DNA of 64,000 nucleotides, from contig NZ_CP038033.1 in the NCBI RefSeq assembly GCF_004421105.1, forward strand, positions 3,429,659-3,493,658. Direction: 5' to 3'. Shown piece after piece: positions 15,167-30,185 of this stretch. The notes beneath the pieces are model-generated. The model searched no databases. It worked only from the letters and a program-made list of their open reading frames with translations, and was not told the origin of the DNA. The stretch is from Nitrosococcus wardiae (lineage in GTDB: Bacteria > Pseudomonadota > Gammaproteobacteria > Nitrosococcales > Nitrosococcaceae). The stretch's first letter is position 1. Each line of letters starts with the position of its first letter. A program made the position numbers and the translations under genes.

Positions 15167-16126
15167 CTACTGCAGCGGAAAAATCAAACCAAATTCCCGC
15201 TTCATCTGGCTTGTCAGTTTAAGTCCTAGGTGCTCAGCGGTACGAATATTGAAAGCAACCAAGAGATTGTGTAACGGCTTGATGCCTAATGGAATATTTT
15301 CACTATTTTGCATTTGCTTTAAGGCAAGCTCGGCGAGACTGCGCCCCATATTCTCGTTGTCTGGGTATAAGGCAAAAAGAACCCCCCTTTTCAGATGAGA
15401 CAAATTACTGGAAAATACGACTAAATTTCTCTCCCAGGCTTCTTGTAATATCAGCGGCAAAATTGTCTGTTCATCGAGGGTTTTGTCTTGCAACAACCAA
15501 ATGGCATCTGTTCCGCTTTTTAATTTATTCAAGACATCGCGGTACAAACTTGCTGCTTCACGGAGACTTTTTGCTGGCAATGCATTGAGTTCTAACTCAT
15601 ACTGCCTGATGGTTTGCTCAGCCCGCTTGATAAGCCAACCATTATGCTCTTGACTATAAATCACTGTAATTCGCTGAACATCAGGTGTAAACTCTTTAAC
15701 TCTTTGAAAAAAAATTTGGGGATCGGGAGCCAGGGAAAGCCCTGTCAACTCGGTGCCGTCGGGAGCAACCAATACGGCACCGACAACTACCCTAAACAGG
15801 GATTGTAATTCTCTTGCTATTAACAAGCCGCGGCCCCCGAGGGCAATAATGACATTTATTTCCTCTTTTTCAAGTTTCTCTTTTAACATTTCAATGCTAT
15901 AATTTTTCTCCAGCGCATAGGACTTTATTGGCGTTTTTAACTCATTCTTAATGCCCCTAATGATATCGAGAAAGATGCTCCGATACGGTTCGCGGATTTC
16001 TGGATAAATAACGGCTACCGAGGATAGACTGGCAAATGCTGCCGACACCATACCTAATCCCATTGATATACACCATAGCGATAAAAAAAGGCATGGAAGG
16101 CAAACCTTTAATTTTTTAATTGACAA
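15167..16126 (-). CDS. Periplasmic ABC-type substrate-binding (sensor) protein
   Basis: 319 residues with an N-terminal signal peptide (about residues 1-31, ending SAAFA). The rest resembles the ABC_sub_bind family: VAVIYPE start, alternating motifs such as IIALGGRGLLIA, ITVIYSQEHNG and a C-terminal FNIRTAEHLGLKL. The last is a typical ending for these proteins. No transporter genes adjoin it. It lies 9 bases before the hybrid kinase and 71 bases after the TonB-dependent receptor gene, so it probably presents a ligand to the kinase. The ligand is unknown. Confidence 0.8.
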   Translation of the reverse strand: MSIKKLKVCLPCLFLSLWCISMGLGMVSAAFASLSSVAVIYPEIREPYRSIFLDIIRGIKNELKTPIKSYALEKNYSIEMLKEKLEKEEINVIIALGGRGLLIARELQSLFRVVVGAVLVAPDGTELTGLSLAPDPQIFFQRVKEFTPDVQRITVIYSQEHNGWLIKRAEQTIRQYELELNALPAKSLREAASLYRDVLNKLKSGTDAIWLLQDKTLDEQTILPLILQEAWERNLVVFSSNLSHLKRGVLFALYPDNENMGRSLAELALKQMQNSENIPLGIKPLHNLLVAFNIRTAEHLGLKLTSQMKREFGLIFPLQ

Positions 16127-18503: not shown

Positions 18504-19343
18504 TTACCAGGCACAGCGAGGTTTACCTTCATATTTAATTCGATCACAACGCAGGGGGAAAAAGGCACCTTCTGGCTTTTTTAGTGCATCCAAATAGCAA
18601 GGAAACATGCCTGCAGAAAAACTCAAGACAGCATAATGATAATATTCATGGCGAGACAGCCCCTGGTCGGCTGCTAGTGCTGCTGTCACAGCAGCAATAT
18701 TCATATACAAGCGCCATCGACCTTTTAGCAGAATTTCTTCGATAGCAAATGCAAGCTTCAAATGAGGACCTTGGTTAAAACCTAATTCTCCAGCTAAAGC
18801 CATAAGCGGTTCAATGCGCTCGTCTTTTCTGGTAATAGGGCGACCATATCCTGGAATAAATTTGTATTTTTTTAATTCTTTACTGACAAGCTCTTCTATA
18901 TCGGCACCCTTATCTAATTGGCATTTTGTCCGCAGTAAAAAATCAATAGCCCGAATATCTGGCCGCCGCCCATAGATCGATGCTTCGGAGACGGCATTGG
19001 CTGCTCCTATAGCTAACGCAGCAGTGCTTCTAACCGTACCCGCTAACGCGGCAACTCGATTATTCCATAATCTTGGATCGGGATAGCTAGTACATAATGT
19101 CCAAATGCCTTCAAATAATCTGAGCTGTTTATCACTAGGAATCTTCCCCGTAATGCCATAAAGAAGTAAACCCATCCAGGGGAGATCTTTAAGCTCGTGA
19201 AATAAATCTTTGCCGCGGAAAATAACCCGCTCCCCTGGAAACCAGGCTCCTATGTTCGTTACCCAATGGTCTTCATTTTCGAAAAGATATTTAGGGCCTT
19301 GCATGGTTTCTATTCCTACATTTATCCGGTAATCTAACAGCAA
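18504..19343 (-). CDS. Citrate-synthase-superfamily protein B (divergent)
   Basis: 279 residues, much shorter than citrate synthase (about 430) and close to the citryl-CoA-lyase size. Superfamily signs are VRSTAALAIGAANAVSEAS, which aligns with the domain around catalytic His274, then PGYGRPITRKDERIEPL, which aligns with the P-G-F-G-H...D-x-R block. The C-terminus PLRCDRIKYEGKPR matches the usual tail. The histidine of the GFGH block is Arg here. The gene starts 4 bases after the stop of a second such gene. The two probably form a heteromer, perhaps with this subunit structural. Activity as citryl-CoA lyase or other C-C lyase is inference. Confidence 0.7.
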   Translation of the reverse strand: MLLDYRINVGIETMQGPKYLFENEDHWVTNIGAWFPGERVIFRGKDLFHELKDLPWMGLLLYGITGKIPSDKQLRLFEGIWTLCTSYPDPRLWNNRVAALAGTVRSTAALAIGAANAVSEASIYGRRPDIRAIDFLLRTKCQLDKGADIEELVSKELKKYKFIPGYGRPITRKDERIEPLMALAGELGFNQGPHLKLAFAIEEILLKGRWRLYMNIAAVTAALAADQGLSRHEYYHYAVLSFSAGMFPCYLDALKKPEGAFFPLRCDRIKYEGKPRCAW

Positions 19344-19347
19344 GCCT

Positions 19348-20148
19348 TTACAATTGCGGTTCAGTGCTCAGTTTCAAACCATGGGCAAAAAACGGATAGC
19401 GGCGCCAGCCATACTCTTGCTGCTCCAAAGCATGAGCGGCTGCTCCAGGCAAACGGAGTAACAGATACAGCATCTCACCTTGCTGGACACTAAAATCCAG
19501 ATCGATCATTGCTGCAGCGGCTACCCCGCTCATCGCTAACGGGCAATTGGCCACAGCCTCAAGTTCCAACCGATGTTGCTGCAACCACGTTAAAACACCT
19601 TCGGAGTGATACTTTGCCAACAAAGCGAGGGTTTGCCGCACCGGCGTGGCGCAACTGGCACCATGGGGATCAAAACCAGGAGGATGCTCCAAGGGCAACC
19701 AAATATCAGCCCGTTCCTCTTGCAGGGGATGCTTAAGACGCTTCTGCCAGGCCATTAAATTTTTACCGCAGTCCTGCCAATAGGTCATAGCCACAACCAC
19801 TTCGTGGGCACCATTTAACTGACCAGCACCGACCGCAAGGGCAGCCATCAGCGAGGAAGCGGAGGTGGAGCCCCCCACTCCGGCACACATGGCGGCACGA
19901 ACGCTATGTTCCCGCGGCCCTGGATTAGCGACAGCCACGGCAAGTCCCTCCAAAAGCTTGGCCTTACCTGGAGCGGGGCGCTCTTGTTTTAAGAGCAGGT
20001 ATAAATATTCAATCCAACTGACTTTACCTAGCAAGTCCCCGTAAACATCATACCCGGAACAATAGCAAGTCGCCGCCGCAAAAGGGTTATCTGGTTCTGC
20101 AATTTCCTCCCAAATCCGGCTATGGATAACCTCCCGTTCCTTGCTCAT
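19348..20148 (-). CDS. Citrate-synthase-superfamily protein A (citryl-CoA-lyase-like)
   Basis: 266 residues. Key stretches are GSTSASSLMAALAVGAGQLNGAHEVVVAM, which aligns with the citrate-synthase loop holding His274 (here Asn in QLNGAHE), and PPGFDPHGASCATPVRQ, which aligns with the GFGH-DPR block and keeps a His. AAMIDLDFSVQQGEMLYLLLRLPGAAAHALEQ matches the C-terminal catalytic Asp region and the typical R-L-P-G-x-x-A-H-A-L-E helix. Citryl-CoA lyases and ATP-citrate lyases also lack the first His. The gene overlaps the stop of the ThDP enzyme by four bases and is followed after 4 bases by protein B. A lyase or condensing enzyme acting on a CoA thioester is likely. Confidence 0.75.
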   Translation of the reverse strand: MSKEREVIHSRIWEEIAEPDNPFAAATCYCSGYDVYGDLLGKVSWIEYLYLLLKQERPAPGKAKLLEGLAVAVANPGPREHSVRAAMCAGVGGSTSASSLMAALAVGAGQLNGAHEVVVAMTYWQDCGKNLMAWQKRLKHPLQEERADIWLPLEHPPGFDPHGASCATPVRQTLALLAKYHSEGVLTWLQQHRLELEAVANCPLAMSGVAAAAMIDLDFSVQQGEMLYLLLRLPGAAAHALEQQEYGWRRYPFFAHGLKLSTEPQL

Positions 20149-21974
20149 TGCGCCATCCCCAATATCCGTATTCGGCTATTGATGGGGGGGACTTCCTCCG
20201 GATCCACTCGCACATCAATAAGGCTAGGACCTGGCCGTTGACAAATGGCCTCAATATCCAGTTCCAGCATATCCTGAGGAGCGTGGATAACATAACCGGG
20301 AACTCCCATTGCTTCAGCATAGGCACAATAATTGATTTCTGGGAGTTCAAAGGCGATAGGCTCGGCCTTGGCTAATCGCTGACCATGCTTCACCATCCCC
20401 AGGGCCGCATCATTTAGAATAATGAAAACCACGGGCAATTTTTCTTGAATTGCCACGGTGATTTCTTGACCACTCATAAGCAGGCTACCATCCCCGGTAA
20501 TACAGACCACCGGGTTGCCGGGCGCGCCTAATGCAGTCCCCACAGCAGCACCAATAGCCCACCCCATCGAGGCAAATTCTAAACAACTACGGAATATTCC
20601 TCCTTTCGCATCTCGCCGGCCGGCTAAACGCCGATCGAAAGGTTGTAAATAGTGGATTGCCCAAGCCATGCTGTTTCCCGTATCTGCTAAGAAGCGGGTG
20701 TTGGGGGGAAACAACCGGGTAAGCTCCCTCATCAGCCGTTGCGGTTTAATGGGCGTAGAGTCATCGCAATACTTCGCTTCCTCATCAAGTTGGAAATGGC
20801 ATCTGGTCTCCTGCATTGCAGCACCCCGCATAGGGGAACCGAACCGTCTGCGTTCTATTTGAGAGACCGGCCCTTCATTTTCTGGCGAGCGACTGCGAAG
20901 ATAATCCAATACGCGCTCGCAAATAGTGATAATTGTTCCCCGTACATGCAACCGGGCCATGGGGGTACGGGTCAAATTCCCCTCTGTGTTCTCTACGTGG
21001 ATTAGCCGAGCATTGAGAAGAGTATTTGCATCCCAGCCATTACTCGCCCATTCCCCCAGACTAGCACCAAACACTACCACGGCATCCACTTTTGGATCAG
21101 ACAAAACCTCACTGGCACTGAGATGTCCGGCAAAGCCAACGACGCCACGGAATAAAGGATGATAGGGACTGACTAACCCTTTGCCATGGGGTGTGGTAAC
21201 CACTTCGGCTTGAATTAAAAGGGCCAGTTCCAAAATAGTGCCGATCGCTTCACTACATTCTTCCCCCACCACAAACACTACTTTTTTTGCCTGTTCAATC
21301 TGGTAACAGAGTGCTTTTACCGCATCATCATCTAGCAAGGAGGGATGATGTAATAGGGTGGCGAGGTTATAGGAAGGTTCCTTAACGGGGCTAATACTAC
21401 GCAAGATGTCTAAGGGAATGCTCAGATGGGTGGGACCACGGGGGGACTGATAGGCCATCATGATCGCCGTACTGAGCTTATGTTCTAATTGGTCCGCGTG
21501 GGAGACTAAAGTACTATAGCGGGTGCAATACTGAAATAACCCCACAGTGTTAATTCCAGTACAAGACGATTCTTGGAAAGCCCCTCGTCCAAAATTACTC
21601 AAAGCAGTCTGGGCAGTAATCACCAGCATAGGAATGTGATTCTCGTAGGCTGAAGCCACGCCTGTAATGAGGTTGGTGGCACCAGGGCCGGTAGTGGCGC
21701 AGCAAACGGCTAACTTACCCGTCTGACGCCCATAACCATCGGCCATAAAGGCAGCCCCCGTTTCGTGGCGGGCGACCACTGATCGCGGACCCCCTCGGCG
21801 GGCGCTGCGGGCTAAGGCATTATATAAGGGCTCAATAGCACCTCCTGGCACCCCAAACACATAATCCACAGATAATTGCGCCAAATAGGCAACTAATAAA
21901 TCTCCTGCCTCGAATTGCGACCGAGATACGCTTCCTTGGGCCACGTTAACCGTTCGATTTGGCATCACCAACAT
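20145..21974 (-). CDS. ThDP-dependent enzyme (acetolactate-synthase-like)
   Basis: A 609-residue thiamine-diphosphate enzyme with the three usual domains. The N-terminal PYR domain has VFGVPGGAIEPLY and the catalytic Glu in ARHETGAAFMADGYGR. A central domain follows, then a C-terminal PP domain with the ThDP motif GDGSLLMSGQEI...NDAALGMVKHG. It resembles acetolactate synthase large subunit, oxalyl-CoA decarboxylase and 2-hydroxyacyl-CoA lyase. No regulatory ilvN gene is adjacent, so a biosynthetic acetolactate role is doubtful. It is the first gene of a tightly coupled operon with two citrate-synthase-like proteins, suggesting a joint C-C bond pathway involving a 2-oxo or 2-hydroxy acid and CoA. 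The product is unknown. Confidence 0.85.
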   Translation of the reverse strand: MLVMPNRTVNVAQGSVSRSQFEAGDLLVAYLAQLSVDYVFGVPGGAIEPLYNALARSARRGGPRSVVARHETGAAFMADGYGRQTGKLAVCCATTGPGATNLITGVASAYENHIPMLVITAQTALSNFGRGAFQESSCTGINTVGLFQYCTRYSTLVSHADQLEHKLSTAIMMAYQSPRGPTHLSIPLDILRSISPVKEPSYNLATLLHHPSLLDDDAVKALCYQIEQAKKVVFVVGEECSEAIGTILELALLIQAEVVTTPHGKGLVSPYHPLFRGVVGFAGHLSASEVLSDPKVDAVVVFGASLGEWASNGWDANTLLNARLIHVENTEGNLTRTPMARLHVRGTIITICERVLDYLRSRSPENEGPVSQIERRRFGSPMRGAAMQETRCHFQLDEEAKYCDDSTPIKPQRLMRELTRLFPPNTRFLADTGNSMAWAIHYLQPFDRRLAGRRDAKGGIFRSCLEFASMGWAIGAAVGTALGAPGNPVVCITGDGSLLMSGQEITVAIQEKLPVVFIILNDAALGMVKHGQRLAKAEPIAFELPEINYCAYAEAMGVPGYVIHAPQDMLELDIEAICQRPGPSLIDVRVDPEEVPPINSRIRILGMAQ

Positions 21975-22339: not shown

Positions 22340-23212
22340 GTGATGAAACTTAAGGCCAACATAAAAACCTTGAAAGTCAGAGTCAAGGATAAGCATAAGC
22401 CAGTGCTTGAGCGCATGGCCTTTGAAGTCAATCAGGTCTGGAATGCGGCTAACGAAATCACGGCGGATTATTCCTATGTGCCTGTTCCCGGTGCGGGTTA
22501 TATCCGCAACAATTTCACGGCATACGAGCTGCAAAAGCTGCTAAAAAGCATCAAGCTGGAACGCGGCTTTATTATTCACTCCACCAGCGTGCAGGAAGTG
22601 ATTGCCGCGCATCACAAAGCGCGCAAGCAATTCAAAACTGACAAGCTCCGCTGGCGTGTTTCGGGTGGTCCGCGCCGTTCATTAGGTTGGATACCGTTCA
22701 AGAAAGGCGCCGCCAAATGGAAGAAGGGGCAGGTGTACTTTGCCGGTCACTGCTTCAAAGTAGGGGACAGCTACGGCTTGTCTCAGTATGTGTTCCGCTC
22801 CGGTTCTTTCTCACAAGATGCCCGCGGGCGGTGGTATTTCAACATCGTGGTCGAAGGGGCTATTGAGCCGTCTACTGCCACCGGACAGGTGGGTATCGAC
22901 CTGGGTTTAAAGGATACCGCCACTGGCAGCAACGGTTTGAAGCTGGAAGCGTATCGTTTCTACCGGAATGGGGAAGCGCAACTGGCAAAAGCGCAACGCG
23001 CTAACAAGAAAAAACGGGTAAAGGCTATCCATGCCCAGATCAAAAATAGACGTTTAGACGCCCTCCATAAATTCACGACACTAGGGGTTCGTGAGAACGC
23101 ATTCATCGTCGTGGGCCATGTCAGCAGTTCCCGCCTTGCTAAAACTAAAGCAGCCATGAACATTCTCGCGGCGGGGCATCGCCGTCTTGCGGAAGGAATT
23201 CCCCTCCTTTAG
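22340..23212 (+). pseudogene. tnpB: TnpB-like nuclease lacking its zinc ribbon
   Basis: A 290-codon reading frame of the IS200/IS605 TnpB (OrfB) family, against about 370-400 residues in full members. The N-terminal domain and the RuvC-I Asp (VGIDLGLKDTATG) are present. After VGHVSSSRLAKTK the frame jumps straight to AAMNILAAGHRRLAEG. The normal linker, the CxxC...CxxC zinc ribbon and the final RuvC Asp (RDVNAA) are missing, consistent with an in-frame deletion of roughly 60-70 residues. RNA-guided cleavage activity should be lost. Its stop codon overlaps the end of the oppositely oriented MoeB-like gene, and it lies between hairpin ends typical of these elements. Confidence 0.75.
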
Positions 23213-23232
23213 GGCGGGAAGGATGTCAAATA
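23200..23232. repeat. IS200/IS605-type right end
   Basis: The stretch CCCCTCCTTTAGGGCGGG (23201-23218) is like the hairpin ends of these elements. It also encodes the last residues (TSFPP) of the MoeB-like protein on the opposite strand. This implies that the insertion replaced that gene's original 3' end. Confidence 0.5.
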
Positions 23233-24627
23233 ACCTGGAAATACCGCGCCCTCGCGGCAATAGGCGCGCTGGGGTCGCCGCACCAACTTGAGTTCGGAAA
23301 AACAGGCTTTAAGGGCGTCGTAATACAGCATCCGGCCCAACAGTGGCTCACCCAAATCCAACAGGATTTTAAGGGCTTCCACCGCCTGTAATAGGCCGAT
23401 AACACCAGGCAAAACGCCCAGGACACCCGCTTCGGCACAGGAGGGGGCCAATTCTGGAGGAGGCGGTTCCGGATAGAGGCAACGGTAACAGGGGCCTGAG
23501 CGGGCCGGCCAAAAAACACTGACCTGACCTTCGAAACGGTACACGGCCCCATACACATTGGGCAGTCCCAATTTAACGCAGGCATCATTCACCAAGTAAC
23601 GGGTGGGGAAGTTGTCGGACCCATCGATGACCATATCATAGTCCCTAAAAATCTCTTCCACATTACGGCTCTCTAGGCGCGATTCATATTCGTTGATGCG
23701 GACAGTAGGATTCAGCGCTGCCAAAGTTTGACGGGCTGAGGCCACCTTGGACATCCCGACCCGATCATCCCGATGCAGAACCTGACGTTGCAGGTTGCTG
23801 CGGTCCACCACATCGTGATCGACTAACCCTAGAGTCCCTACCCCCGCCGCCGCTAAATATAGGCTGGCAGGCGATCCGAGCCCTCCAGCCCCCACCAATA
23901 ACACCTTACTCGCCATGAGCTTTTGTTGGCCTTTTTCCCCGATTTCTGGCATCAGAAGATGGCGGGAATAACGACTCCGCGCCGTTTCATCTAACATCTG
24001 CGGCACCTCAAAAGGCAAACCCTCATCTTTCCAGCGATTAAACCCTCCGACAATGGAACGAACATCCCGATAACCCAGTTGTTTGAGACTTTCAGCCGCA
24101 AAAAGGGAACGGGATCCACTCCCGCAAAGGGTGAGCACGGTACAATTGAAGTCCGGCACACTTTGTTCAACTCGCAGCTCCAAATACCCTCTTCCTAGGC
24201 GATAAGCACCCGCAGGACTACCTTGGGCAATTTCATCACTTTCTCGAACATCGATAAGCACAGCACCTCCTGCTTGCAGGGCGAATGCCTTCGTCGGCGT
24301 TATTTCCGGAATGCTGCGTTTCAGTGACTGTAGCCGATAATCCTTACCACTACCCCCGGCTACCGCGGGAATAATGGTGAGGACATCGCCGTCCTTAAGA
24401 GGCGTATCCAACCCTTGCAAAGTGCGAAGATGACACTCCCCCAAAAAGAGATTAACGAAAGGACGAACTTCACCTTCTGGAGTCAGCAAGCGATTTAAAA
24501 TACCCGGATGGGCCGCCCCTAATGCCTTAAGAGCACCGCCTACCGTATCGGCCTGAAGTTGCACTTGCTCCGCTCCGCCCACTTCACCCTGTAACGGAGA
24601 GGGAATGTGAACCGTAATTTTGCTCAT
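23209..24627 (-). CDS. MoaD-rhodanese-MoeB/ThiF triple fusion
   Basis: 472 residues, three domains of sulfur-carrier chemistry in one chain. Residues 1-93 are a MoaD/ThiS ubiquitin-like carrier (LDTPLKDGDVLTIIPAVAGG) whose Gly-Gly is internal rather than C-terminal. Residues about 105-212 are a rhodanese with the Cys loop CGSGSRS. Residues about 215-460 are an E1-like adenylyltransferase with the ATP site GAGGLGSPASLYLA and DHDVVDRSNLQRQ, and the first zinc pair CYRC. The usual second zinc CxxC near the C-terminus is incomplete (AYCREG). The last five residues come from an IS right end. Likely roles are sulfur transfer for molybdopterin, thiamine or cysteine. The thiD gene lies divergently next door. 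Confidence 0.85.
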   Translation of the reverse strand: MSKITVHIPSPLQGEVGGAEQVQLQADTVGGALKALGAAHPGILNRLLTPEGEVRPFVNLFLGECHLRTLQGLDTPLKDGDVLTIIPAVAGGSGKDYRLQSLKRSIPEITPTKAFALQAGGAVLIDVRESDEIAQGSPAGAYRLGRGYLELRVEQSVPDFNCTVLTLCGSGSRSLFAAESLKQLGYRDVRSIVGGFNRWKDEGLPFEVPQMLDETARSRYSRHLLMPEIGEKGQQKLMASKVLLVGAGGLGSPASLYLAAAGVGTLGLVDHDVVDRSNLQRQVLHRDDRVGMSKVASARQTLAALNPTVRINEYESRLESRNVEEIFRDYDMVIDGSDNFPTRYLVNDACVKLGLPNVYGAVYRFEGQVSVFWPARSGPCYRCLYPEPPPPELAPSCAEAGVLGVLPGVIGLLQAVEALKILLDLGEPLLGRMLYYDALKACFSELKLVRRPQRAYCREGAVFPGYLTSFPP

Positions 24628-24807: not shown

Positions 24808-25611
24808 ATGAATGGTCGCATCCTGATCATCGCCGGTTCGGATTCCGGTGGCGGCGCTGGAATTCAGGCGGACATTAAAACCGTCACCGCCCTTGGGGGC
24901 TATGCCGCCACGGCAATTACTGCCCTCACTGCTCAAAATACCCAAGGGATCTTTGCCGTGCAGCCGGTAACACCTCATTTTATCGCCGAACAGGCGCGGC
25001 GGGTGCTGTCGGATATCGGTGCCGACTGTATCAAAATCGGTATGCTCCATTCAGTGGCTGTCATCGAAACGGTAGCCGACGTTTTAGAAGAACTGGCAGG
25101 GGGCATTCCGCTCCTACTTGATCCGGTAATGATAGCCAAAGATGGGACCCCACTCCTTGATCAAGCCGCCATCAAAACCTTAAAACGGCGCTTGCTTCCC
25201 CGGGCAAGCCTTATTACGCCAAATCTCCCGGAGGCCGAAGCGCTCACCGGTCTGAAAATCGGCCATCCTGAAGCCATGCCAGAGGCGGCAAATGCCTTGT
25301 TAGAACTCGGCTCTAGCGCCGTTTTGCTTAAAGGGGGGCATCTTCCTGGCCATCACCTTTATGATCTGCTGATGATGCGGGATTATAAAGAAATCTTCCA
25401 GACCCAGCGTATCTCGACCCCTCATACCCATGGGACAGGATGCACGCTGGCTTCGGCCGTTGCAACCGGCCTTGCTCAAAAGCGACTCCTTCTGGATGCG
25501 GTTCGGCGGGCCCATGCCTATGTACAGGAGGCAATCCGCACCGCCCCTGGTTATGGGCAAGGCCAGGGTCCTCTTAACCATACCCATACCGTGAGTCCTT
25601 TGGAAGCCTAA
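24808..25611 (+). CDS. thiD: Hydroxymethylpyrimidine/phosphomethylpyrimidine kinase
   Basis: A 267-residue ribokinase-fold enzyme that phosphorylates HMP and HMP-P in thiamine synthesis in the cytoplasm. Typical ThiD stretches are AGSDSGGGAGIQADIKT at the N-terminus, LDPVMIAKDGTPLL, TPNLPEAEALTG, and the C-terminal anion hole/catalytic motif THGTGCTLASAVA. The length is normal. It is transcribed away from the MoaD-rhodanese-MoeB gene; both concern sulfur/thiamine chemistry. ThDP is also the cofactor of the enzyme encoded at 20-22 kb. Confidence 0.93.
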   Translation: MNGRILIIAGSDSGGGAGIQADIKTVTALGGYAATAITALTAQNTQGIFAVQPVTPHFIAEQARRVLSDIGADCIKIGMLHSVAVIETVADVLEELAGGIPLLLDPVMIAKDGTPLLDQAAIKTLKRRLLPRASLITPNLPEAEALTGLKIGHPEAMPEAANALLELGSSAVLLKGGHLPGHHLYDLLMMRDYKEIFQTQRISTPHTHGTGCTLASAVATGLAQKRLLLDAVRRAHAYVQEAIRTAPGYGQGQGPLNHTHTVSPLEA

Positions 25612-25728
25612 CCTCCCGCGGATACCCCAAAAACTTCCATAACCCCCTATCCTAATACAAAAGTAAGTCGTCATCATTCAAGATTATTCATTCCTTGATT
25701 TATCCTCAGATTAGGAGAAAAACAGTCC

Positions 25729-26391
25729 ATGTCCAACAAAACACTCCAGATTACCGATGATCTCTATGACTACCTGCTCTCGGTTTCCCTCCGGGAGACT
25801 GATATCTTGCGGGAACTTCGGGAAGAAACCTCAACCATGCCCAGGGCCAATATGCAGATCTCCCCGGAGCAAGGCCAATTTATGGCCCTTCTCATAGAGC
25901 TGTTAGGCGCCCAAAAGACCCTAGAGGTAGGTGTCTTTACCGGCTATAGTGCACTTTGGGTGGCCCTCGCGCTACCCTCCGAGGGACGAATTGTAGCTTG
26001 TGATATTGATCCCGACTGGACAGCTATCGCTCAGCGCTATTGGCAACGGGCTGGTGTGGCGAACAAAATCGATTTACGCCTGGGGCCGGCTATTCAGACC
26101 TTGGATCAACTCATCGAAGCGGGGGAAGCCGGCACTTTCGACTTTGCCTTTATTGATGCCGAAAAAGTAGAGTACGAAGACTATTACCAACGGGCTTTGG
26201 AACTACTGCGCCCAGGCGGCCTTATCGCTGTTGATAATGTCCTGCGGGCGGGACGGGTCATCGACCCGAGCTTCACCGATGAAGATACGGGCGCTATTCG
26301 TGCTTTCAATTTAGCCCGTCTCAAAGACGAACGGGTGACCTTGAGCATGGTACCCATTGCCGATGGACTTACCTTAGCACGAAAGCGCTAA
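25729..26391 (+). CDS. Class I SAM-dependent O-methyltransferase
   Basis: 220 residues of the caffeoyl-CoA/catechol O-methyltransferase-like family 3. The SAM-binding motif is LEVGVFTGYSALWVALALP, followed by ACDIDPDW, then FDFAFIDAEK and LLRPGGLIAVDNVL, all in the expected order. The substrate is probably a small catechol-like compound. GGAGAA precedes the ATG. The gene ends just before a TnpB fragment, and there is no obvious operon partner. Confidence 0.88.
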   Translation: MSNKTLQITDDLYDYLLSVSLRETDILRELREETSTMPRANMQISPEQGQFMALLIELLGAQKTLEVGVFTGYSALWVALALPSEGRIVACDIDPDWTAIAQRYWQRAGVANKIDLRLGPAIQTLDQLIEAGEAGTFDFAFIDAEKVEYEDYYQRALELLRPGGLIAVDNVLRAGRVIDPSFTDEDTGAIRAFNLARLKDERVTLSMVPIADGLTLARKR

Positions 26392-26946: not shown

Positions 26947-29900
26947 ATGATTTCCAAAAAAAAATGGCTATTCTTACATTGCTATGCTATTCAGGGAAGG
27001 ACAGTACCCATGAGCCATCAACAAAGAAAAAATCACCACCAATCCTCGCCCCAATCTTCTAGATTTATCCACCCTCCCCTGATACAGCCCGTACACACCA
27101 CCGTGCGGGGGCGGGCCCGGTTTAAAATTCCCGCCCTTCATCGTGCCAAGCACTTAAAAGCGCCTCTAGAAGAGAGCCTACAGGCAAGAAACGAGATTCA
27201 TAGCGTAAGAATAAATCCTCTGCTGGGGAGCTTATTAGCCCAATTCGATCCTGCCATTCCTCTCAGTGAGATTGTTTCTTTAATCCAGCAACAGGTGGCC
27301 ACGGTAGCGCGGGAAACCCCGCCTCCTGAAAAAGAAAGTCCCACAACCTCTAAAGTGACGGAATCCTCAAAAGGCTCTGCGACAGTAACTTCGATTTTCG
27401 AGTATTGGAGCAAACGCAATGAGCACCAGTCGAAAGCGCAATCACCCACTCCACCGGCCGTGCCCACTGGCAAGGGAACACCATGGCACAGCCTTGCATC
27501 GGCTCAGGTTCTGCAACATTTACAGGGCGATGCCCATTCCGGTTTGACGGCCATCGAGGCGAACCAACGCCTAGCCCGCTATGGACCCAACCAGTTGCTG
27601 CAAGCCCGGGCTCGCTCCCCTATGCAGATCTTTTTGTCGCAGTTCAACAGCCTGCCGGTTTGGTTGCTGGGCGCTTCTGCCGGGATCGCTATCTTCACAG
27701 GGGGATTAGTAGATGCTGCCGTTATCCTAGGGGTAGTGCTGATCAATGCCACCATCGGCTTTGTGACCGAACAATACGCGGAGCGGACTCTCACTGCCCT
27801 CACCCATATGGAGTCCCATACCACCCTGGTGCTCCGGGAAGGCCAATCCCAGTCCCTGCCCGCAGAAGAAGTGGTACCGGGGGATGTGATCTTGCTGACC
27901 CCCGGCAACTATGTCCCTGCCGATATCCGCTTACTAGCCGCAAAACGCCTCAGTCTAGATGAATCCGCATTAACCGGAGAAAGTCTACCGGTAACCAAGA
28001 ACCCTGAGTTTCTTGGCAAAGAGGATACACCTCTCGGCGACCGGCTGAACATGAGCTATATGGGAACGACGGTGACCGGGGGCAGTGGCCGGGGCATTGT
28101 CGTCGCTACTGGAGCAGCTACCGAAATTGGCAAGATCCAGACCATGGTCGGTGAAACGAAACCCCCGGAAACCCCCATGGAGCGGCAACTGGACCAAATG
28201 GGGACGCAAGTGGCTATACTCAGCGCCGCCGTTTGTGCGGGAGTCTATGCCGTCGGCTTGCTGCGGGGCTACGGCTGGTTAGAAATGCTCAAATCCTCCA
28301 TCTCATTGGCGGTTGCGGCAGTACCGGAAGGCCTCCCTCCGGTAGCCACTACTACCCTGGCCCTGGGTATGCGGAGCATGAACCGGCGCAAGGTGTTGAT
28401 CCGCCAACTAGGTGCCGTGGAAACCCTGGGCTCAGTGCAGGTAATTTACCTAGACAAAACGGGTACGCTCACCCAAAACCGGATGACCGTGGTGAGCATC
28501 AGCACTGGAAGAGGGGAAATTATTGTTAATGATGGCCACTTCTATCTCTCAGGAGAACAGATCGAGCCAACACAAATCAAGGATCTCTTGCGCTTTTTCC
28601 AGGTTATCACTCTGTGTAACGAAGCTGAATTGGAGGCAGGAGAAACCCCCAAAGCCAACGGATCTTCCACGGAAAATGCCTTGCTAGAAGCCGCCAGTTT
28701 GGCAGGTATCGATATCCACCAGCTGCGGCAAGAATTTCCCAGACTTGAGATTCAGCACCGAGCTGAGGGTCGTAACTATCTGAAAGCCCTCCATGAATTT
28801 CCAAACGGCAAGCGATTTTTAGCGATCAAGGGGAGCCCCTCCCAGGTGTTGACCATGTGCCATTGGCGTACTGAAAATGGAGAGCAGGTTAAAATCCGAG
28901 AGGAGGACCGCTCTGCTTTCCTTGCCCAGAACGAAACCATGGCGGCAGACTCCTTGCGGGTGCTAGCGTTGCCTACACTTGGCTAGAGCCCAATCAATCC
29001 TCCAAAGACGCGAAACTCACGTGGCTTGGTCTAGTGGGAATGAGCGATCCGGTGCGCACCGGCATGGCCGAGCTGATGAATCGCTTCCATGCCGCCGGTA
29101 TCGATACCATGATGATCACCGGCGATCAAAGCGCTACCGCCTATGCGATTGGAAAACAACTTCACCTAGCTAAAGGAGAACAGCTGCAATTTCTTGACTC
29201 TATCCGCTTAGAAACACTCGATCCAGAACTGCTGGCAGGGCTCGTGCAGCAGGTCCATGTTTTTTCCCGGATCAGCCCATCCCACAAACTGCAAATTGTC
29301 CAAGCCTTGCAACGGGCAGGAAAAGTGGTGGCCATGACGGGCGACGGGATTAATGATAGTCCGGCTTTGAAAGCCGCCGATATTGGTATTGCCATGGGCA
29401 GTACGGGAACGGAAGTGGCCCAAAGTGTAGCCAATGTAGTGCTAGAAGATGATAATCTGCACACCATGATCAGTGCCGTAGAACAGGGCCGCGCGATCTA
29501 CGGCAACATTCGCAAATCCATCCACTTCTTGCTAGCCACCAACTTTAGCGAAATTGAGGTGATGTTAGTGGCTATAGCCTTGGGCCTAGGACAACCCCTT
29601 AATCCCATGCAGTTACTCTGGATCAATCTGATCACGGACATCTTCCCCGGTCTCGCCCTGGCCCTTGATCCTCCCGATCCGGAGGTCCTCAATAATCCTC
29701 CTCGGGATCCCCAGGAACCCCTTATTCAACGCCGCAAACTCAAGCGAATGGGCCTAGAATCGGTGGCGATTACTGCCGGCAGCTTATCCAGTTATGGCTA
29801 TGCCTTAGGGCGTTATGGTCCTGAACCCAAAGCAAACACCCATGCCTTTACCAGCTTGACTTTAGCCCAATTGCTCCATTCCTATAGCTGCCGCTCCCCC

Positions 29901-30185
29901 CAACACAGTATATTGAGTGGCCACCGACCACCGCCCAATCCTTATCTTAACTGGGCGGTAGGGGGCTCCATTGGGGCGCAAATTTTGGCCAGCTTTATTC
30001 CGGGACTGCGCAATATTCTAGGTATCACACCTATTAGCCTTGCCGACGGTTTGGTCATCGGCGCCGGGGCCACTCTCCCCTTCTTGATCAACGAAGCCAC
30101 CAAGCCCACGGGCAAACCTCAAGCAACCCCCAGCCCAAAAACCGCCTCACCCTCAGCCGAAACCCATCTCCAAGGAGAGTCTTGA
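26947..30185 (+). pseudogene. P-type cation ATPase with HMA-like N-terminus, frameshifted
   Basis: A cation-transporting ATPase split in two frames (26947-28986 and the continuation to 30185). Residues about 50-120 form an HMA-like domain without CxxC (VRGRARFKIP...GSLLAQFD). Next come an N-terminal cation-ATPase domain, TGES in the actuator domain, the phosphorylation site DKTGTLT and, after the break, TGDGINDSPALK and four or more C-terminal TM helices, as in type II (Ca/Mg-like) pumps. Near 28968 one base appears to be missing: adding a G restores VLAVAYTWLEPN and joins the frames. A real mutation or an assembly error are both possible. An internal Met at 27010 with an upstream purine-rich site may be the true start. 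MetK-like gene follows after 4 bases. Confidence 0.85.

Follow-up and report, generated by a model that had tools for sequence, protein, structure and literature searches.

What joint task could link a thiamine diphosphate (ThDP)-dependent enzyme to two short proteins of the citrate synthase superfamily encoded directly behind it? The question is raised by a 64,000-nucleotide stretch of the Nitrosococcus wardiae genome (contig NZ_CP038033.1, positions 3,429,659 to 3,493,658; here called the window, with coordinates counted from its first nucleotide), in which open reading frames (ORFs) of 609, 266, and 279 residues lie in a row on the minus strand. The original prediction, made from the sequence alone, had described these three frames and a 4-base overlap between the first two, and we read the row in the same way, the stop of the ThDP gene and the start of the next gene sharing the letters ATGA. 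It had further proposed that the two small proteins, here named CSA and CSB, form a heteromeric lyase or condensing enzyme acting jointly with the ThDP enzyme on a CoA thioester. We find that a joint function of the trio is well supported. We also find, downstream of CSB and on the same strand, three sensory genes that the prediction did not mention, for a TonB-dependent outer-membrane receptor (TBDR), a periplasmic binding protein of family PF04392 (PBP), and a hybrid histidine kinase (HK). That all six genes form one locus that makes and senses a small molecule is, in our judgment, an evenly balanced proposition.

The trio recurs as a unit

A search for CSA relatives recovered 20 contigs from named gammaproteobacterial records, of Methylococcaceae, Crenotrichaceae, Thiogranum, Sedimenticola, Thiotrichaceae, Acidiferrobacterales, Exilibacterium, and others. 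All 20 have a ThDP gene within 1 kb of CSA (on the opposite strand in L020; L and G numbers are our own handles for loci and genomes), and CSB follows CSA in 16, the remaining four contigs stopping within CSA. A survey of 369 genomes of the class, with the ThDP family called at a threshold of E 1e-120, identified CSB in 43, CSA in 42, and the ThDP family in 48. CSA is present in 41 of the 43 CSB-positive genomes versus 1 of the 326 CSB-negative ones, and the ThDP enzyme in 40/43 versus 8/326; in two of these eight, G121 and G262, the 3' side of the gene lies at a contig end. For this co-occurrence Fisher p is < 1e-40, a value uncorrected for relatedness. Among the exceptions, G109 has a 60-residue piece of CSB at a contig end and neither CSA nor the ThDP gene, CSA was not found in the CSB-positive G235, and the genes of G091 are in pieces.

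A search of the phylum (398 genomes) returned 13 with CSA matches, including the window's own genome and one more of the class. G520, G436, G442, and G488, which lie outside the class, have the six genes overlapping in a single row ordered TBDR-CSA-CSB-ThDP-PBP-HK; G477, G496, G524, and G528 carry ThDP-CSA-CSB with other neighbors, and G432, G761, and G765 have weak CSA matches. In G094, the ThDP enzyme (residues 12 to 594) and CSA (residues 611 to 875) occupy a single 886-residue frame with no stop between them. Plasmid-borne spread of the trio was considered and rejected on the results from PLSDB, where tblastn with CSA and CSB reached 5 and 16 records, only at distant citryl-CoA-lyase-like places of 23 to 31% identity, and the ThDP enzyme had no match at the strict limit of E 1e-80.

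Neighborhoods were compared in 70 loci, the number left after removal of L065 and L067, near-copies of L025 and L016 (identity >99%), and of L100, where no core gene was called. The set holds two same-genome pairs, L084 with L112 (G193) and L088 with L113 (G253); the weak CSA matches L114, L123, and L124 and the neighborhoods of the CSB-positive genomes G079, G225, G249, and G313 lie outside it. In each of the 57 loci where both CSA and CSB are called, the two share a strand and are separated by no more than 475 nt. The marking of CSA as absent in L023, L073, L077, and L079 is an artifact of the choice between overlapping ORFs, and CSA is present there. When counts are confined to the 49 loci flanked by 5 kb or more in both directions, a ThDP gene lies within 5 kb in 44. 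Loci L009, L010, L013, L025, and L066 have a ThDP-CSA spacer of 0.7 to 1 kb; in the four of these that were clustered, the spacer ORFs fall in no shared family. The trio thus recurs in the neighborhood search that the original prediction had called for, and the outcome named there as contrary, either small gene always alone and an ordinary citrate synthase, was not seen.

In a 69-row phylogenetic tree, CSA sequences form one group (99/98) and CSB sequences another (100/100). Because the two groups divide into matching sets of three subfamilies, the pair is, as far as the tree can tell, old and travels together. Mirror-tree correlations are 0.91 for CSA-CSB and 0.39 to 0.89 for the other pairs; they are uncorrected for the relatedness of species and are not used as proof.

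CSA and CSB share a citryl-CoA lyase fold and have lost the catalytic triad

The profile matches of CSA and CSB to citrate synthase and citryl-CoA lyase are weak but, by their sequence scores, appear real. Pfam PF00285 gives 26.9 bits for CSB and 18.6 bits for CSA against a cutoff of 27; NCBIfam citryl-CoA lyase models match both at E about 1e-14, far under their cutoffs, with the best PRK06224 models at 53.7 bits (CSB) and 55.5 bits (CSA) versus cutoffs of 193 to 409. The best solved relative of both by sequence is 6hxp, a citryl-CoA lyase. AlphaFold models of moderate confidence, built from 22 sequences for CSA (mean pLDDT 71.9) and from 18 for CSB (mean pLDDT 69.8), show the citrate synthase fold in both. 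The CSB model aligns to 6hxp with a VIA Z of 18.8 and a root mean square deviation (rmsd) of 4.5 over 211 aligned residues, and the CSA model aligns to 6hxp (Z 14.9, rmsd 3.9, 210 aligned) and to 6hxj (Z 15.3, rmsd 4.0, 215 aligned). The Foldseek rmsd is poor, 4.4 to 20 Å in the rows listed, and parts of the models have low confidence; with these models, citryl-CoA lyase or its module in ATP-citrate lyase appears to be the best structural match for both proteins.

The columns of His274, His320, and Asp375, which we take to be pig citrate synthase numbering, were located by reference to the citrate synthase of the window's own genome (L001), and the triad was counted in 64 CSA and 60 CSB rows, excluding the weak matches L114, L123, and L124. 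His274 and Asp375 are kept in no row of either protein; His320 is kept in no CSB and in one CSA, that of L121, which has this His alone. The loss of Asp375 from both had not been mentioned in the prediction. CSB carries Tyr (58/60) or Phe (2/60) at the His274 position and an invariant Arg (60/60) at the His320 position, where the predicted replacement of the GFGH His by Arg is borne out, and it retains Asn373 in 59/60 and the DPR Arg in 60/60. In the window's CSB, numbered along the 279-residue ORF, the Tyr, Arg, and Asn are residues 124, 168, and 215.

The Asn reported at the His274 position is indeed found in the window's CSA, but it is not a family trait, since this column has Asn in 9/64, Gly in 33/64, and Leu in 13/64 rows, with the alignment perhaps off by one in subfamily II, where most rows have His or Tyr one residue earlier. 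The prediction that CSA keeps a His where CSB has Arg is not supported: CSA has Pro at the aligned position, and the His of the nearby GFDPH varies (Asn, Tyr, or Arg in some homologs). A CSA His as replacement catalyst was considered and is ruled out, as its position is not conserved. Cys165 and His238 are invariant in a 22-row CSA alignment; more widely, some relatives lack this Cys.

In annotation, the citrate synthase fold is commonly read as the mark of a citrate or citryl-CoA enzyme. That CSA or CSB is an ordinary citrate synthase is ruled out, as the triad is lost and the genome's two strong PF00285 proteins lie elsewhere (456 and 429 bits). Partial triad loss is not unique to CSA and CSB, because plasmid proteins annotated as citryl-CoA lyase (L141, L142, L143, and L144) are, by eye, also without the first His and the Asp, the second His being kept. 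That annotation is doubtful for all four; L141 and L142 adjoin CoA-transferase and acyl-CoA dehydrogenase genes, and L144 adjoins AMP-ligase and enoyl-CoA hydratase genes. What stands out in CSA and CSB, judging from the alignments, is complete triad loss within a fixed pair. The predicted joint function thus draws support from co-occurrence, linkage, the G094 fusion, and the parallel subfamily splits, but the citryl-CoA or methylcitryl-CoA lyase chemistry attached to it is unsupported, since both proteins have lost the catalytic triad.

The ThDP enzyme differs from biosynthetic acetolactate synthase

The ThDP enzyme scores over the cutoffs for PF02776, PF00205, and PF02775 (TPP_enzyme N, M, and C), and H70-E71, G494-D495-G496, and N521-D522 are invariant in 25 aligned sequences. 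It has the three domains, catalytic Glu, and GDG...N motif of ThDP enzymes. With TIGR00118, the model for biosynthetic acetolactate synthase, it reaches about 273 bits against a cutoff of 538. The true acetolactate synthase of this genome, at 871 bits, is the product of a separate gene; an ordinary acetolactate synthase is thus ruled out. Among solved structures, the ThDP family profile scores best with BbmA (424 bits) and CsmA (374 bits), followed by acetolactate synthases at 307 bits or less.

A receptor, a binding protein, and a kinase lie beside the trio

Among solved structures, the receptor is closest to the colicin I receptor, BtuB, and ferric enterobactin receptors. In the window's genome the single PF04392 match is the one at this locus, and there are eight TonB plug matches. 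PF04392 is commoner in CSB-positive genomes (30/43) than in CSB-negative ones (78/326). Of the same 49 loci, 41 have a TonB receptor no more than 5 kb from the CS genes. Within 7 kb, 36 have a PF04392-type protein, 40 have a kinase, and 35 have the ThDP gene, receptor, PF04392-type protein, and kinase together. The kinase calls rest on one profile, which missed the kinase of L116 that Pfam shows. Gene orders include ThDP-CSA-CSB-TBDR-PBP-HK, the same with PBP-HK inverted, TBDR-CSA-CSB with the ThDP gene apart, and the TBDR-CSA-CSB-ThDP-PBP-HK row of the four genomes outside the class. Because gene order differs between subfamilies, the association is kept through rearrangement. Among 25 clustered loci, no further gene family occurs in more than 5.

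Some loci have additional genes that hint at chemistry. Short-chain dehydrogenase/reductase (SDR)-type reductases are in or near the clusters of L029, L093, L094, and L112, with a MaoC-SDR in L119; an O-methyltransferase gene lies by L012, asparagine-synthase-like proteins are encoded in or beside L021 and L091, and AMP-ligases in or beside L118 and L113. In two genomes in which CSA and CSB were not found, another gene lies between the ThDP gene and the receptor set. The first, L153, has a FabH-like synthase flanked by a ThDP gene (609 bits) and the receptor set; Cys, His, and Asn are in place by eye, and a 131-residue ORF accompanies it. The second, L150, from a single-contig genome, has an S-adenosylmethionine (SAM) methyltransferase between the ThDP gene and TBDR-PBP-HK. 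Beside the ThDP genes of G132, G259, G260, and G261, which also lack CSA and CSB, the ORFs looked at include no partner of the FabH-like or methyltransferase type. Since FabH-like enzymes act on acyl thioesters, the slot filled by CSA and CSB plausibly handles an acyl(-CoA) partner, by analogy with L153.

A proposed make-and-sense locus and its alternatives

The evidence supports CSA and CSB as the repurposed partner of a ThDP carboligase. In the mechanism we propose, the ThDP enzyme would decarboxylate a 2-oxo acid and couple the acyl group thus activated to an acceptor. CSA and CSB, as a pair that probably forms a complex with this enzyme, would bind an acyl(-CoA) acceptor or complete the C-C bond, and the Tyr/Arg/Asn of CSB would be the new active site for this step. 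The product, at a guess of the hydroxyketone or beta-keto type, may be trimmed by reductases or methyltransferases in some species. It would be exported, re-enter through the TonB receptor, be bound by the PF04392 protein, and be reported to the kinase, whose output here would be cyclic di-GMP (c-di-GMP).

Several observations weigh against this make-and-sense reading. Its sensory half also occurs alone: 10 of 16 control PF04392 loci without CS genes have an adjacent TonB receptor and kinase (the controls were hand-picked, and five or more come from genomes that also have CSB), and in L128, the control most fully scanned, the neighbors of the cassette are pdxJ-, recO-, era-, rnc-, and lepB-like, that is, housekeeping genes. 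Strict specificity of the TBDR-PBP-HK set to the trio is therefore rejected; because the set also occurs without CS genes, it is a generic cassette and need not sense the product of the trio. The trio, in turn, has neither TBDR nor PBP in the DNA fetched for L116, L117, L118, L119, L022, L073, and L101. In L116, L117, and L119 the neighbor is instead a protein of 1727 to 1771 residues, which in L116 has protein-kinase/AAA/GAF/histidine-kinase domains and is followed by a LuxR-type response regulator. Nor is the trio itself always intact, as G185 has CSA and CSB without a ThDP enzyme of this family, and in G193 about 0.5 Mb of one contig separates CSB from CSA and the ThDP gene. The ThDP gene is distant from CSB on the same contig in G128 and on another contig in five draft genomes. 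The L153 genome, finally, is a draft, 86% complete and 6% contaminated. As an observation in its own right, stand-alone TonB receptor/PF04392/histidine kinase cassettes recur in Gammaproteobacteria (L125, L126, L128 to L131, L135, L136, L138, and L140).

The alternative that survives best leaves all chemistry to the ThDP enzyme, with CSA and CSB as noncatalytic pseudoenzyme subunits that scaffold or regulate it, and it is compatible with making and sensing. Small subunits regulate acetolactate synthase; three triad residues are gone from both proteins, a natural ThDP-CSA fusion exists, and 6 of the 48 ThDP-positive genomes lack CSA and CSB though the 3' side of the ThDP gene is not at a contig end. 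Against this, the replacements in CSB are near-invariant, like those of a working site (Tyr 58 or Phe 2, Arg 60, and Asn 59, of 60), and a FabH-like enzyme of the condensing type fills the slot in one genome. We regard purely structural or regulatory subunits as possible, if somewhat improbable.

Less probable, and on the whole unlikely, is that the trio makes a metallophore (for iron, copper, or some other metal) that enters through the TonB receptor and is detected by the binding protein and kinase. The relatives of the receptor and its proximity to the CS genes (within 5 kb in 41/49 loci) would suit such a molecule, as would the asparagine-synthase-like, O-methyltransferase, and AMP-ligase genes near some loci; yet neither a siderophore assembly line nor a siderophore ABC importer was recognized in the part of the neighboring ORFs scanned, and the trio stands without a receptor in the fetched DNA of L116, L117, and L119. 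An enzyme of primary carbon metabolism, turning over for example 2-oxo acids or CoA esters, with the sensory cassette adjacent by chance or for regulation only, is distinctly unlikely. It would account for the cassette found alone and for ThDP genes unlinked in some genomes, with that of G260 beside a sucA-like gene, but not readily for a patchy presence (43/369), an association retained across several gene orders, the true acetolactate synthase elsewhere in the genome (871 bits), or the lack of any metabolic gene family in more than 5 of the 25 clustered loci. That CSA and CSB are an active citryl-CoA (or similar) lyase or synthase, as first proposed, agrees with their size and their nearest fold and family, citryl-CoA lyase 6hxp or the ATP-citrate lyase module, but is very improbable given that the equivalents of His274, His320, and Asp375 are missing across the aligned rows, save the His320 position of one CSA (L121).

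For the make-and-sense locus, an autoinducer and a metal carrier as product are indistinguishable on present evidence, and a noncatalytic role of CSA and CSB within it is possible. We put forward only tentatively, and as a doubtful extension, that it represents an undescribed signaling class, in which a ThDP carboligase and two rebuilt CS-fold subunits would make a diffusible molecule that is read by a dedicated TonB receptor, a binding-protein/hybrid-kinase pair, and c-di-GMP, and which would be common to ammonia oxidizers, methanotrophs, sulfur oxidizers, and marine heterotrophs. The pair itself, present in 43/369 genomes of the class, is a case of a CS fold with its former chemistry lost, other residues invariant, and a tie to a ThDP enzyme. 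Should the product be a signal or a metal carrier, the trio would offer a new route for a ThDP enzyme to choose its acceptor, and the product would be a chemical language common to ammonia-, methane-, and sulfur-oxidizing bacteria (lifestyles taken from taxon names) that is undescribed in the portion of the literature searched.

Gene row and flanking genes

The coordinates of the features are collected in Table 1. The 279 residues beginning 4 bases after CSA, as originally predicted for CSB, are an artifact of the start codon. Because Met14 of this frame is conserved in all 18 rows of the alignment, of which the window's is one, translation most likely starts at that ATG, 43 nt after CSA.

Table 1. 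Coordinates of the trio and the sensory genes in the window
Feature	Coordinates	Strand	Basis
ThDP-dependent carboligase-type enzyme, acetolactate synthase superfamily, 609 aa	20145..21974	-	ORF, Pfam/NCBIfam profiles, alignment
CSA, citryl-CoA-lyase-fold protein, 266 aa, citrate synthase triad lost	19348..20148	-	ORF, profiles, alignment, model
CSB, citryl-CoA-lyase-fold protein, 266 aa from ATG 19304 (most likely start); triad replaced by Tyr / invariant Arg / Ala	18504..19304	-	ORF, profiles, alignment, model
CSB full ORF, 279 aa, upper end TTG 19343	18504..19343	-	ORF list
TonB-dependent outer-membrane receptor (TBDR), 712 aa	16198..18336	-	Domain profiles, structure-database relatives
Periplasmic binding protein PF04392 (PBP), N-terminal stretch signal-peptide-like (by eye)	15167..16126	-	Pfam
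Hybrid histidine kinase (HK), BarA-like with receiver domains, fused to GGDEF-EAL module, 1499 aa	10658..15157	-	Domain profiles

The window's genome is a single contig of 4.02 Mb. Just upstream of the ThDP gene is an IS605 OrfB-type transposase-like ORF (22340-23212, plus strand), not called there in the nearest relative, L029. A gene at 23209-24627 (minus strand) combines ThiS-like, rhodanese, and ThiF-like domains, with a clustered homolog at this place only in L029 among the 25 clustered loci. At 24808-26391 (plus strand) a Methyltransf_3 O-methyltransferase gene lies with a gene that looks ThiD-like by eye; both were considered as members of the system and set aside, since among the 25 clustered loci they are near the cluster only in the five genomes of the window's family looked at (G000 to G004). 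A cation-ATPase-like gene (by eye) at 26947-30185 (plus strand) looks interrupted in the window, where it is split into ORFs of 679 and 383 residues; in L029 it is a single 1087-residue frame.

Comparison with known systems

The large subunit of acetolactate synthase (IlvB/IlvG) shares its superfamily and ThDP motifs with the ThDP enzyme of the trio, which nevertheless falls far below the family cutoff and has no small-subunit gene among the neighbors scanned. Closer are BbmA and CsmA (PDB 8x3x and 8x3z, known here by their PDB names alone). BbmA has in common with the ThDP enzyme an insertion after the QE motif and matches the window's sequence alone at 301 bits. Among the matches listed from the part of the open-licence literature covered, none concerns BbmA or CsmA as ThDP enzymes, such a trio, or this receptor set.

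Citryl-CoA lyase (6hxp) and the corresponding module of ATP-citrate lyase resemble CSA and CSB in fold and length. In contrast to the lyase, CSA and CSB lack the catalytic His/His/Asp and are two paralogs kept together with a ThDP partner, and citryl-CoA synthetase is not among the trio neighbors scanned. PqsBC, a heterodimeric FabH-like condensing enzyme, is likewise a pair of paralogs with a condensing fold, and a FabH-like protein occupies the CSA/CSB slot of one genome; unlike the trio, it has the thiolase rather than the citrate synthase fold and is not known to work with a ThDP enzyme. Autoinducer systems of the LuxPQ and CqsA/CqsS types differ from the locus described here in their synthase families and are not known to involve a TonB receptor, and signaling by our locus is a proposal from its genes. 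They share with it a binding protein with a hybrid kinase, its putative synthase lies beside a receptor as theirs does, and a hydroxyketone signal is conceivable here too.

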